A DNA stretch of 50,324 bases from Candidatus Poseidoniales archaeon (lineage in GTDB: Archaea; Thermoplasmatota; Poseidoniia; Poseidoniales; Poseidoniaceae), in contig QQSC01000013.1 of the NCBI GenBank assembly GCA_003602475.1, positions 1 through 50,324 of the forward strand, read 5' to 3'. Under the pieces are notes generated by a model that saw only the letters and a list, made by a program, of their open reading frames with translations, had not been told where the DNA came from and did not search any database. Position numbers and translations under genes: made by a program. Below are positions 42,109 through 47,637 of the stretch, piece after piece (the stretch's first letter is position 1; each line of letters begins with the position of its first letter).

Positions 42109-45100
42109 ATGGGTAAGGCAGCGTGGTTGGTTCTGCTGCTGCTCGTACCTTTCCCCGCAGCACCGCCGACGGCACAACCCGCCCAGCAGGACAACCTCGG
42201 TACGACGTGGGTTCTTGACCTCGGTGAAGACGTGTGGACGGTTACCGATTGGACGAATCTCGTAGACCAAGGGCATCAACCCCTGCGCCACCTCTCACCT
42301 CACCTTCTCCTCACATGGACCGAAGGGACAGAACCCGTTGATGTCGGTGGAATCGGGGTTGAACGAGCGCCCCCTGTTCAATGGCGAAGCGGTCTTGCTG
42401 CACCATCCATCGGTGAACACATCGCATTGCGAATCGTCCTTGAACCGTATTTGCCGGCGAACGTCAAGCTGACCATTGGTGAACTTCTCTCGGCTCATGG
42501 CCACCTTGTGGGCGAGGGCTTGGACACGCAACACCCTCTGGCTTCCATCGTCACCTTGGAACTTCGCGAACGTGTCGTTCTCTCCGATTTTGAGTTGCCC
42601 GGTGTGGCCTGGGTTGAACCCGTCCTGTCAACAACCGCTCGCAACGGTCTGTCTGCGTCTCTCAGCGAGCACGGCTCAATGAATGAACATCCGTTTTGGA
42701 ACATGGGTTTGGATGGAACGGGTGTGGTCTTGGGGGTTGCCGACAGCGGGTTGGACGCCGACCATGCCTGCTTCCGAAACGCTACGGATTCTGAAGCCCT
42801 TCATGCTGATGCCGGGGCCGAGTATCCCGCGCTGGGTCGTGTTGGCCCAGATCATCGAAAAATCCTGATCCTCAACACCACCATTGACGGCAACGACACG
42901 CCCGGCCACACCGATTACCGGCACGGGACCCACGTGGCTGGTACGTTGGTTTGCAGGGACGTGCAGAGCGAACGCAATGCAGAGGAGCCCACAAATGGAA
43001 GCGCCTTGGCCCACGGGGCAACCCTGGTGTTCCAGGACATTGTGAACGAAGACGGCTGGAATCCGCCTCCTGTTGACGAATTGCTCGTTGAAGCGTCCCG
43101 AGCCGGTGCCATTGTCCACTCAAATTCGTGGGGGGACGACACCACGGCATACACCGCAAGAACGGGTTTGTTTGACGCTTATGCTGTCGCCGTTCCTTGG
43201 TCGCTGGCGTTTGTTGCTCCGGGCAATGCTGGGGAAGGTGTCCTCGAGCCCGCCAATGGCCGAAACGTCGTTGCGGTCAGTGCGACATCAAAATCCCTCG
43301 ATCCACAACGGTGGGGCGGGACGGCTTACGGGCCAACAGAAGCTGGAACCGACGGCGTGTTCCTCCTCGCCCCTGGAAAATCCATTCGATCGGCTGCTGC
43401 TGACGGCTTTCTCAACACCAACAACAACAACCTTCGATCTTCATCCGGCACGAGCATGGCCACGCCTTTGGCAGCAGGCGGAGCGGGTGTGATTCAGCAA
43501 ATGTACGAGCAGGGCTGGATTTTGGGTACTCGGGAATTGACGACGGAGCAATCGGCCAGCACCCTTGCACCATCATGGTCGAACACCGACGACATCACCG
43601 TCCGATTGGGCCAAGGATTCACGCCTTCAGGTGCCTTGCTGAGAGCCACACTCGCATTGGCCACCACGCCTTTGAGCGAGGAACACCGCAACGGGGGAGA
43701 TGGGGGCGATGAGTGGCGTACACCCTACGACGGCTGGGGTGTCCTGAATCTGAGCCGAGTGTTCAACCCGGCAGACCTGCAACACAACACCACGGCTTCC
43801 CCAAATCTTTGGATACACGACAGTTTTCGACTTAACGGATCTCACGATGAGTGGGTCGCTACACACCTCACAAACGCCAGCAACGTCACTTCGATTGCTT
43901 CCACACCATGGTACGGCGAAGACGCTGCGGGCCCCTTTCTTCAAACCGGCGACCGGTGGGAACGGCGCTTTACACCTGTAGATGATGAAGACGTCCGAAT
44001 TCGAATGGCCTTTCCAGCCAAACCCGAACCCATGATGGTGGACGACCTTCAACTCAAGGTGAGGTTGGACGACGGTAGGGTGTTGTTGGGAGACCGCTCC
44101 CAAAGCAACGGTACGCCAACGGTGTTTTCCTCGACCATCAACACGGGCAACTTTGATTTGTTTCCATCCACCAACGAGACGACCATTGGGCTGAACATTC
44201 CCGCCTCCATGCTTCACAACGCCACACATTTTGATGTGGAGGTTGTTGCGCGGTTTGTTGCCCACGGCAACCTCACGGGAGCCGTTGGTTTGGGCGGAGA
44301 TGCGACCGGATTTGCCCTCGTGGTGCAGGGGGTGGACCGTGACAGCAACGACCACGGTGACGATGACCTTGATGGTGTGGCCAACATTGACGATCTGTGT
44401 CCTGACGAACAGGCCATCATCGATGATCAAGACGGTGACGGGTGTCTTGATGACGACGATCAAGATGGAATTCCTAACGTCGCTGATGATTGCCCCGACC
44501 ACTCCGCCATCGGCTTTGATGTCGACAACAACGGATGTTTGGACGATAGCGATGGTGACGGTGTTACCGATGAGGGAGATGCGTGCGTGACACCCGATCT
44601 AAACTGGCCCGTTGACAGCACGGGCTGCTACCCCGTGGACCGAGCCGCTGTCGTCTCAAACATCATGGCACCTCGAAACGATTCTGTCATTGAATCCGTG
44701 TTGAACATTGGATGGGCAGTGGTTGACCAGGACGGTGATTCGGTGAGCATTGAAGTGCAGATTCGCACACACAAAGGGGCTCAAACCAACCTTACCTCAT
44801 ACAGCAGTGTTGTGAACGCCACTTCTGCGCCCACCAACGGGTCGTGTCGTTGGCTCATCCCCGACGATTTACCTCCCTTTACTCAATACGACCAAACCTA
44901 CGACGTGGTGATGGTGGTTCGTACATTGAACGCTTCTCCTGCGGCAGTTCGGCTTCCTTCTGAAACGGTGATCGCCACCAACCTCACCCTGAACCATGTT
45001 GAGGACGAACCGATTCCCTTGCCCACATCATCCAGCGATGCGGGGTTGAGCATGGTTCTTCTCACGCTCGTGGCGATGGGCGCTGGCGTCCTGACCGTTC

Positions 45101-45189
45101 GGTTCGTGACTCGAGGGAAAAAGGAGTCATCAAATGAGAATGTCAAGCCGCCATTTGCTGTTCAAAGAGCCAATGGCCAGCAGAACTGA
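42109..45189 (+). CDS. secreted subtilisin-like serine protease with TSP3-type calcium repeats
   Basis: 1026 residues. A signal peptide (1-~22) and a prodomain-like region precede the S8 catalytic core, with D212 (VADSGLD), H272 (RHGTHVAG), the oxyanion-hole N373 (APGNAG) and S449 (SSGTSMATPL). A beta-rich region follows. Residues ~745-830 hold acidic thrombospondin type 3-like calcium repeats (DDDLDGVANIDDLCPDE, DGDGCLDDDDQDGIPN and so on). A further domain and one membrane helix near residue 980 end in a basic tail, so the protease is held at the cell surface. It likely breaks down proteins as food. Confidence 0.92.
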   Translation: MGKAAWLVLLLLVPFPAAPPTAQPAQQDNLGTTWVLDLGEDVWTVTDWTNLVDQGHQPLRHLSPHLLLTWTEGTEPVDVGGIGVERAPPVQWRSGLAAPSIGEHIALRIVLEPYLPANVKLTIGELLSAHGHLVGEGLDTQHPLASIVTLELRERVVLSDFELPGVAWVEPVLSTTARNGLSASLSEHGSMNEHPFWNMGLDGTGVVLGVADSGLDADHACFRNATDSEALHADAGAEYPALGRVGPDHRKILILNTTIDGNDTPGHTDYRHGTHVAGTLVCRDVQSERNAEEPTNGSALAHGATLVFQDIVNEDGWNPPPVDELLVEASRAGAIVHSNSWGDDTTAYTARTGLFDAYAVAVPWSLAFVAPGNAGEGVLEPANGRNVVAVSATSKSLDPQRWGGTAYGPTEAGTDGVFLLAPGKSIRSAAADGFLNTNNNNLRSSSGTSMATPLAAGGAGVIQQMYEQGWILGTRELTTEQSASTLAPSWSNTDDITVRLGQGFTPSGALLRATLALATTPLSEEHRNGGDGGDEWRTPYDGWGVLNLSRVFNPADLQHNTTASPNLWIHDSFRLNGSHDEWVATHLTNASNVTSIASTPWYGEDAAGPFLQTGDRWERRFTPVDDEDVRIRMAFPAKPEPMMVDDLQLKVRLDDGRVLLGDRSQSNGTPTVFSSTINTGNFDLFPSTNETTIGLNIPASMLHNATHFDVEVVARFVAHGNLTGAVGLGGDATGFALVVQGVDRDSNDHGDDDLDGVANIDDLCPDEQAIIDDQDGDGCLDDDDQDGIPNVADDCPDHSAIGFDVDNNGCLDDSDGDGVTDEGDACVTPDLNWPVDSTGCYPVDRAAVVSNIMAPRNDSVIESVLNIGWAVVDQDGDSVSIEVQIRTHKGAQTNLTSYSSVVNATSAPTNGSCRWLIPDDLPPFTQYDQTYDVVMVVRTLNASPAAVRLPSETVIATNLTLNHVEDEPIPLPTSSSDAGLSMVLLTLVAMGAGVLTVRFVTRGKKESSNENVKPPFAVQRANGQQN

Positions 45190-45277: not shown

Positions 45278-46282
45278 ATGAGTGAGCGCTTGTATGTTGG
45301 AATCGACCTTGGAACTTATCAATCAACCATCGCTTCCAGCGCTGGAAAAATGCACACTGTGGAAACCGTTGTCGGACGACCAAAAGATCCGGTGGCTCGA
45401 AACTTCCTCGGCCGTGACGTGTTGTTTGGCGACGATGCTCTCAAGAACAAGCTCGCATGCAACCTTTACCGCCCCATGGCCGCCGGTGTTGCACAGGACG
45501 ATGAAGGCAACTTGGCCGCTGCCAAGGCCTTTGTTTCCCACCTTCTCGAGACCGTTGACCCAGAAGAATTCGATGAAGTCCTCGGCGTCATCTGCTCCCC
45601 AAGCCACGTTTCATTCACGGACAAGTCCAACCTTGTGGCGACCCTCCGAGGCCAAGTCAACGCCATCATGGTCGTGACCGAGCCCTTCGCCACCGCTTAC
45701 GGCATCGAAGAAATCGCTGGTTCAATCGTGGTTGACATCGGAGCAGGCACCACCGACATCGCTCGTGTGTACGGAACATTCCCCACCGACGAAGACCAAC
45801 TGACCATCACCGAAGCCGGCGATTGGCTCGACCTTGAACTGATGAAGTTGATCAGCAAGAAATTCACCGGTGCACAAATCACCAAAGACATGGTTCGCAA
45901 GTGGAAGGAAGCCTCTTCCTATGTCGGTGGCGACGTTCAGGAAGTCACCGTTGAACTGTCCGTTGAAGGAAAGCGACAAATCGTCGACATTGGCGACCTC
46001 ATCCAGGAAGCTTGCGATTTGATCATGCCCAAGATTGGTAACGCCATCAAGAAAATTGTTGCCGGCGCCGACCCTGAGTACCAGCCCATCCTCCGCAACA
46101 ACATCATCCTGTCCGGCGGAGGTTCCCTCATTCAGGGCTGTGCCGACCGAATCGCATCCGAAATCGCCGATATTGGCGACGTTCGTGTGTGGTGCGTTGA
46201 AGACGCCATCAACTCCGTGGCCATTGGTGCCCTGAAGTTGGCCTCCGAGATGCCCGACGACATGTACACCGCAATCAACTGA
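45278..46282 (+). CDS. MamK/MreB-like actin-family filament protein
   Basis: 334 residues of the actin ATPase fold. Phosphate-1 is VGIDLGT (residues 7-13), phosphate-2 is VVDIGAGTTD (151-160), and the adenosine motif is LSGGGSLIQG near residue 278. The region VVGRPKDPVARNFLGRDVLFGD and the run TFPTDEDQLTITEAG resemble MamK, the actin that aligns magnetosomes, more than ordinary MreB, as far as I recall these sequences. No magnetosome gene is near. A GGTGA site precedes the ATG. A coiled-coil gene follows on the same strand. Likely role: cytoplasmic filament for cell shape, division or placing of cell structures. Confidence 0.88.
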   Translation: MSERLYVGIDLGTYQSTIASSAGKMHTVETVVGRPKDPVARNFLGRDVLFGDDALKNKLACNLYRPMAAGVAQDDEGNLAAAKAFVSHLLETVDPEEFDEVLGVICSPSHVSFTDKSNLVATLRGQVNAIMVVTEPFATAYGIEEIAGSIVVDIGAGTTDIARVYGTFPTDEDQLTITEAGDWLDLELMKLISKKFTGAQITKDMVRKWKEASSYVGGDVQEVTVELSVEGKRQIVDIGDLIQEACDLIMPKIGNAIKKIVAGADPEYQPILRNNIILSGGGSLIQGCADRIASEIADIGDVRVWCVEDAINSVAIGALKLASEMPDDMYTAIN

Positions 46283-46374
46283 TTCGGCGAAGTGACAGTG
46301 AGCCCAAACCAGCCCCCTCAGTGGGCGTCACCGCGGGAAGGTTCAAGTGCAGTCAATTTGGCATCGTTGCTCGT

Positions 46375-47637
46375 ATGGCGATTGAAAGTGCTTCACCCAA
46401 CAACGGTCGTGGGCTCGGTTCAGCCAACGATGAACGCGCTGCCCTAGAGGGGATGCTCAAGGGATACCCTGTCAACCAGCTGGTGGAAGAGGTCCTTGTG
46501 GCATGGGACGAGTTGGCTCGCCGCAACGAGGAACTCGTCGTTGTCAAGCAACGACTGCGCGTCCTCGAACTGGATTTGGCCGAACGCCAAGACACGATGG
46601 CTCCCGAACTCGCACGACTGAACGAAGCAGAAAATGAACTGGGCGACGCGTTGGCCAAGATCACCCATCTCGAACGGGTTGTCGCTGACACCCGAGATGA
46701 ACTGGCCGCTCAACAATCCTCACTCTCGCATCAAGAGCGGGAAGACATGACCCGGGAAGTGGCCCAACTACGGGACCTGACCGCTCAACAAAACGAAGTG
46801 ATCGGTGAAATGGAAGGGCGCGTCACGCAAATGGTGAGTGCCTTGGAACGCGCCGCTGAAGCCGGATTAACATCGGTCACGGCAGACGAAGTCAGAGCTC
46901 TCAAGCATCAGGTCGACGAGACTCAACGTCAACTGGACGTTGAAAAGGCGGCGGCTGAGGCCCTTGAAGAAGAGCGGCAGCGGCTTCGAGACATCGCTGA
47001 CCGGCTCCGAGGCTTGCTTGACGCCAGAGACCGGCGCCTTGGGGAATTGGAAGAACAACTTGAACGTGTGATGCAAGGTCCTCGTTCGGTCTCCGCTGAA
47101 CACGATTACCTCGTCGAACAAATTGAAGATTTGAAGCGCCGTTTGCTGGAGCGAAACAGAGAATATGAGTCCCTTCGGCGTCGAGAACGACGGCTCCACA
47201 ACGATGTGTTTGAGCGCGACGAGCGTTTGCAACAAATGAGCCTCACCATGACCGACATCGAAGCGGCCCTGCAAGACAGAATGGCTGAACTTCGAGAAAT
47301 GGAAGGCCAACGTGCTACGATGGAACACGAGCTCAACAGCGCTCGACGGAACGAACGTACTCGCGAAGTGGTTGGACGCGTGTTCACGGACTCTCTCTCC
47401 CTCGTTCGCGGACACGAAAGTCGTGAACTGAAGCGAGAACTCTACGCTCGTTCACCTGACCTCGAGCGAACCATCAAGGCCCCCACCGCTGAAGACATGG
47501 CTACTTTGGCCAGTGGTGAAGAAATTGAACTGGCTACAGAGGAAACCGTCATTGAACCGGGCATGAACGTTGACGATGTTCGCCCACCGTCTCCCGGAGG
47601 CACCGGGGACCCGGTCATGGAAGATCACGACGAGTGA
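46375..47637 (+). CDS. long coiled-coil protein, 420 aa, next to the actin-like gene
   Basis: Residues ~40-330 form a nearly unbroken coiled coil rich in Glu, Arg, Leu and Gln. A short N-terminal region precedes it (LEGMLKGYPVNQLVEEVL). A less regular acidic C-terminus follows (ATLASGEEIELATEET) ending in DHDE. There is no membrane segment. No named family. It starts 92 bases after the actin-like gene on the same strand and may be its filament partner or cross-linker. A GTG at 46321 would extend it by 18 residues. Its end overlaps the convergent GGGP synthase gene by 13 bases. Confidence 0.75.
   Translation: MAIESASPNNGRGLGSANDERAALEGMLKGYPVNQLVEEVLVAWDELARRNEELVVVKQRLRVLELDLAERQDTMAPELARLNEAENELGDALAKITHLERVVADTRDELAAQQSSLSHQEREDMTREVAQLRDLTAQQNEVIGEMEGRVTQMVSALERAAEAGLTSVTADEVRALKHQVDETQRQLDVEKAAAEALEEERQRLRDIADRLRGLLDARDRRLGELEEQLERVMQGPRSVSAEHDYLVEQIEDLKRRLLERNREYESLRRRERRLHNDVFERDERLQQMSLTMTDIEAALQDRMAELREMEGQRATMEHELNSARRNERTREVVGRVFTDSLSLVRGHESRELKRELYARSPDLERTIKAPTAEDMATLASGEEIELATEETVIEPGMNVDDVRPPSPGGTGDPVMEDHDE

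Follow-up and report, generated by a model that had tools for sequence, protein, structure and literature searches.

The window analysed here, a stretch of 50,324 nt that is contig C5 of a 1.95-Mb Poseidoniales genome (G000), encodes an actin-fold ATPase of the MamK/BeeR branch, which we call actin B, and behind it a long coiled-coil protein; judging from sequence comparisons and a structure model, we think it rather probable that actin B forms filaments and that the adjacent coiled coil is a dedicated filament-associated linker or adaptor. The nearest public relatives of the genome are Poseidoniales, Marine Group II, in keeping with the original prediction of a MamK-like actin and an adjacent coiled coil in a marine archaeon. 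In surface seawater few archaea are as abundant as Poseidoniales, of which we know no cultured member; MamK-type actins have, to our knowledge, been studied almost only as organelle-arranging filaments in magnetotactic bacteria. The gene order at the locus is S8 subtilisin-like protease, actin B, coiled coil, convergent GGGP synthase and ABC transporter, with FtsY and prefoldin alpha as other neighbours seen around actin B loci; these identities come from reading the translations, backed by gene order in relatives. The three genes that concern us most are:

42109..45189, plus strand: subtilisin-like protease with acidic, aspartate-rich repeats of calcium-binding type (translation reading, synteny)
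45278..46282 including stop, plus strand: actin B, predicted 334-residue MamK/BeeR-branch actin-fold ATPase (NCBIfam, PDB, AlphaFold2/Foldseek)
46375..47637 including stop, plus strand: 420-residue coiled-coil partner (adjacency to actin B, long helices)

The three nucleotide-binding motifs originally quoted for the actin are all present in its 334-residue translation, and the ATPase signature of actins, in its phosphate as in its adenosine motifs, is conserved in actin B:

45299..45316, plus strand: phosphate-1 motif GIDLGT, residues 8-13 (translation; G8, D10, G12 and T13 invariant in 22 aligned actins)
45728..45757, plus strand: phosphate-2 motif VVDIGAGTTD, residues 151-160 (translation; D153, G155, A156, G157, T158 and D160 invariant in 22 aligned actins)
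46109..46138, plus strand: adenosine motif LSGGGSLIQG, residues 278-287 (translation)

Among the NCBIfam models, MamK (NF040964) matched actin B at 330 bits (E = 1.3e-98; cut-off 400 bits) and BeeR (NF053558) at 211 bits (E = 2.2e-62; cut-off 530 bits), while MreB models gave 74 (E = 1.2e-20) and 64 bits (cut-offs 293 or 366 bits) and salactin (NF053533) 27 bits (cut-off 400), all of these scores lying below the respective cut-offs, as did a match to Pfam PF25229 (23.4 bits, cut-off 27.1); the Pfam label of the protein is MreB_Mbl. Searched singly against the PDB, actin B matched MamK (2.6e-62), BeeR (2.5e-39) and MreB (2e-11), and a profile of 22 actin sequences returned MamK at 327 bits, BeeR at 206, MreB at 82 and eukaryotic actin at ~51, with crenactin absent among the 60 best PDB matches. 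An AlphaFold2 model (pLDDT 88.8) found MamK 5ljv as its best Foldseek match (TM 0.91), then BeeR (TM 0.85). MamK, at 34% identity for the AMB-1 protein, is therefore the nearest solved structure in sequence, profile and fold searches, and the resemblance lies far beyond chance, as had been supposed. Because the family models, the solved-structure profiles and a confident model agree, we place actin B in the MamK/BeeR branch, at a great distance from both MreB and eukaryotic actin; our tree included one bacterial MamK and one BeeR, so that the position predicted within the branch is coarse. As actin B falls short of the 400 bits required for MamK, and its neighbours include no recognised magnetosome gene, we regard it as a relative of MamK and not as MamK. 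The earlier view that MamK, and not MreB or crenactin, is the closer relative of the actin stands for MreB, and for eukaryotic actin too, its crenactin part resting on absence from the 60 best PDB matches; the protein cannot, however, bear the name MamK itself. A tblastn search of plasmids gave weak MreB-type matches only.

The coiled-coil gene follows directly after the actin, as first described, on the same strand across a gap of 92 nt that contains a promoter-like element kept in all relatives examined. We place its start at ATG 46375 and not at GTG 46321 of the ORF finder because orthologues share that methionine. A structure model has helices at residues 33-162, 170-233 and 239-359; no Pfam family matched the protein, and a DivIVA-like N-terminus was rejected, there being no Pfam DivIVA match at E-values up to 10. 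Conservation along the chain was measured in 17 full-length rows and is high both in the hinge (residues 163-169, 0.93), which is missing from the short forms described below, and in one segment of the middle:

46338..46347, plus strand: AAGGTTCAAG promoter-like element, 28-37 nt before the coiled-coil ATG (conservation across relatives)
46423..46860, plus strand: N-terminal helix, residues 17-162, common to the 150-residue short form (alignment, segment table)
47047..47226, plus strand: residues 225-284, the best-conserved 60-residue stretch, missing from all short forms (mean commonest-residue frequency 0.92)

The element AAGGTTCAAG, or a close variant of it (AAAGTTCAAG, AAGGTTCAAT), occurs about as far ahead of the ATG in all loci compared, 11 full-length and four short, and is possibly the TATA-type promoter of the group. 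Across both families it is kept ~28-40 nt ahead of the coiled-coil ATG.

That the pair is kept in related genomes was borne out, the coiled coil lying downstream of actin B in 80/80 loci of Poseidoniaceae and in 7/7 actin-bearing loci examined in Thalassarchaeaceae, the other family; in one genome (G299) the two genes are unlinked, both being retained. Some loci have insertions of 0.6-2 kb downstream of the coiled coil, and in Thalassarchaeaceae several genes are inserted upstream of actin B, so that gene order is disrupted on both outer sides of the pair and not between its members. Over the 80 Poseidoniaceae loci identity is 84-95% for actin B, ~65-86% for the coiled coil and often near 40-50% for the protease. 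The S8 protease, a fast-evolving protein, is found upstream of actin B at every locus where the flank is covered, and is probably not part of the filament.

Most genera of Thalassarchaeaceae lack both actin B and a second actin, actin A. The actin-less genomes of this family encode at the same site, convergent with GGGP synthase, a 150-residue orthologue of the N-terminal part of the coiled coil, which is without residues 163-420 of the long form and so without its best-conserved stretch, and these loci keep a AAGGTTCAAG-type element ahead of the ATG. This truncation alongside actin loss, as read from the alignments, is our best evidence that would tie the middle of the coiled coil to the actin. 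In an RpoB tree the actin-less genomes of the family form a single clade of 26, which has smaller genomes, and the actin-bearing genera branch earlier; there was therefore mainly one loss event, and, falling in a clade with smaller genomes, the joint loss could be general reduction. Repeated independent joint loss, which we had considered, is weakened by this tree and also because two further absences, those of G070 and G274 in genus g14, may be assembly gaps, a contig end adjoining the locus in G070 and GGGP synthase having been looked for and not found in G274. Basal MGIIb subclades have been reported to share traits with MGIIa (PMC6336850), which would fit the earlier branching of the actin-bearing Thalassarchaeaceae genera, provided that those subclades correspond to these genera. 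Short coiled coils adjoining GGGP synthase lie at L132:9226-9684, L133:9131-9589, L134:9116-9574 and L142:3934-4389, and have the motif QL(I/V)EEV..xWDE.

Actin A, likewise of the MamK branch and 49% identical to actin B, occurs in nearly all Poseidoniaceae, and at loci with sufficient flank it is preceded by a zinc-ribbon protein. These genes in the window genome, and the residue of actin B on which a comparison with actin A turns, are:

C50:36562-37557: actin A (NCBIfam MamK 362 bits, below the 400 cut-off)
C50:37689-38702 (L001:2589-3602): zinc-ribbon protein, 338 residues, N-terminal zinc ribbon, beside actin A
46085..46087 of the window, plus strand: Pro270 of actin B, the position of the MamK A278D change (PEYQATVLQN in 5jyg, PEYQDTVLQN in 5ljw)

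Against salactin, actin A scored 58 bits with NF053533, missing the cut-off of 400, and 47.8 with Pfam PF25229, passing that of 27.1; the Thalassarchaeaceae actins tested against MamK NF040964 scored 340 and 377 bits, below 400. The zinc-ribbon protein, actin A, actin B and the long coiled coil have an identical distribution in Thalassarchaeaceae (G109, G112, G158, G182, G200, G271, G281, G287 and G303), and in the remaining genomes of that family the zinc-ribbon protein is absent or at trace level only. Family matches of this protein are limited to the zinc ribbon; its residues 257-305 weakly resemble other short proteins of the group, and we take this region to be possibly TerB-like.

The PDB lists 5ljw under the name 'MamK non-polymerising A278D mutant'. 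At the equivalent position actin A (n = 29) has Asp in 23, Asn in five and Glu in one, and actin B (n = 98) has Pro in 72, Gln in 20, Ala in three, Ser in two and Thr in one, never an acidic residue; as actins A and B are two clades, this contrast amounts to one fixed difference. By analogy with the mutant, actin A may be defective in self-polymerisation. In the best tree actin A groups with MamK (93/78; one MamK and one BeeR sampled), and actins A and B as one clade, that is, a single Poseidoniales duplication, are not rejected (p-AU 0.147). We tentatively offer, while thinking it quite unlikely as a whole, a two-actin system in which actin B would be the polymer, actin A, not self-polymerising, would cap, nucleate or co-polymerise with it, and each would have its own partner (the coiled coil for actin B, the zinc-ribbon protein for actin A), the whole being an archaeal skeleton that positions some structure.

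For the pair itself we propose that actin B would be an ATP-driven, filament-forming member of its branch, and that the coiled coil would cross-link the filaments or connect them with a membrane or cargo; the conserved middle of the coiled coil (~residues 163-345) would meet the filament and its N-terminal helix (17-162) an older partner that persists without actin. Probably together with actin A and the zinc-ribbon neighbour, the pair would make up an internal scaffold, separate from FtsZ division, that positions or segregates something in small coccoid cells. Counting against the linker role, coiled coils have many possible binding targets. It is also conceivable, if somewhat unlikely, that the two genes are neighbours only through slow decay of gene order, actin B acting by itself or with different partner proteins, and the coiled coil having a separate function. 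This would suit a coiled coil that has its own promoter-like element and is retained in actin-less species, the unlinked pair in G299, the S8 protease, which is about as constantly adjacent to actin B and need not be related, and a joint loss that was mainly a single event. However, the coiled coil drops its best-conserved part exactly in the clade that loses actin, its N-terminal part and promoter remaining, and the outer sides of the pair break when the inner junction does not.

Other identities for actin B have less in their favour than the linked filament that we prefer. An MreB-like filament of cell shape or division would agree with the Pfam label, and MreB is the next known family behind MamK and BeeR, but the MreB score of 74 bits stands against 330 for MamK, Poseidoniaceae cells are cocci of ~0.7 um (PMC6864105), and 97/97 genomes, whether they encode the actin or not, have FtsZ-family genes; we consider this reading very improbable, and actin B as the sole division machinery is rejected by the same FtsZ count. 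Hardly credible at all is a true MamK that arranges magnetosomes or an organelle resembling them: MamK does come closest of all families in sequence and fold, yet its 400-bit cut-off is missed by actin B, actin A and the Thalassarchaeaceae forms tested, and no magnetosome gene was recognised in the flanks that were read, the neighbours being FtsY, prefoldin alpha, S8 protease, GGGP synthase and ABC transporter. A link to the archaellum was rejected as well, since G241 and G317 have archaellin without actin and G112, G200, G271 and G281 actin without archaellin. Nearly every Poseidoniales genome among the 97 has two to three tubulin/FtsZ-family genes, the third being much weaker.

Of the known systems, AMB-1 MamK (PDB 5jyg/5ljv, NF040964) is the best match by sequence, profile and fold, is of equal length and shares the kept nucleotide site, whereas actin B is archaeal, scores below the cut-off, has no magnetosome genes seen nearby and has a coiled-coil partner without a family match. 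MamK of Desulfovibrio magneticus works with coiled-coil proteins, with interactions in two-hybrid tests (PMC12748827), and Magnetospirillum AMB-1 has two MamK-type actins in one cell (PMC2818848), a pairing like that of actins A and B in Poseidoniaceae. BeeR of Verrucomicrobiota (PDB 8r2n, NF053558), the second-best match to actin B (TM 0.85), is a MamK relative outside magnetotaxis, of unknown function, that forms a three-stranded tube; it has a disordered N-terminal extension of 30-50 residues, and its paper describes no partner coiled coil (PMC11929497). Actin B differs in lacking such an extension (the first strand of its model starts at residue 4) and in scoring 211 bits against a 530-bit cut-off. 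Salactin of Haloarchaea, for which MamK was reported as the closest subfamily (PMC10746226), is likewise an archaeal actin with MamK affinity, but actins A and B reach 58 and 27 bits, respectively, with its model, where 400 are required. Crenactin is an archaeal actin with adjoining partner genes too, being encoded beside arcadin regulators, one of them SMC/Rad50-like (PMC5173319); it differs in its partner proteins and is not in the 60 best PDB matches of actin B.

Paired MamK-branch actins, one of them beside an apparently dedicated coiled coil, suggest an internal skeleton of which we found no description in the literature searched. No paper treating MamK together with Poseidoniales or Marine Group II was found in that literature, most subscription journals lying outside its scope, and the MGII papers checked for terms relating to actin or a cytoskeleton contained none. 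That non-magnetic archaeal cocci have two paralogues, each with a putatively dedicated partner, and that another archaeal class has a relative, makes one ask what role the wider MamK/BeeR branch plays; the natural variants (actin A and actin B, long and short coiled coil) make function testable.

The relative in another class of Thermoplasmatota, in genome G080, is a MamK-family actin that scored 435 bits against NF040964, above the 400 cut-off, and was the sole protein to pass it among those scored. The assembly has 7% contamination, and the contig of the actin carries archaeal-type genes, e.g., DUF531; such an actin is present in 1/12 genomes of the class. Directly after it lies a 618-residue protein (L140:10423-12276) with a long helical part rich in Lys, Glu and Arg, unrelated to the coiled coil of the window, and G080 thus repeats the arrangement of an actin and a long helical protein with another partner.
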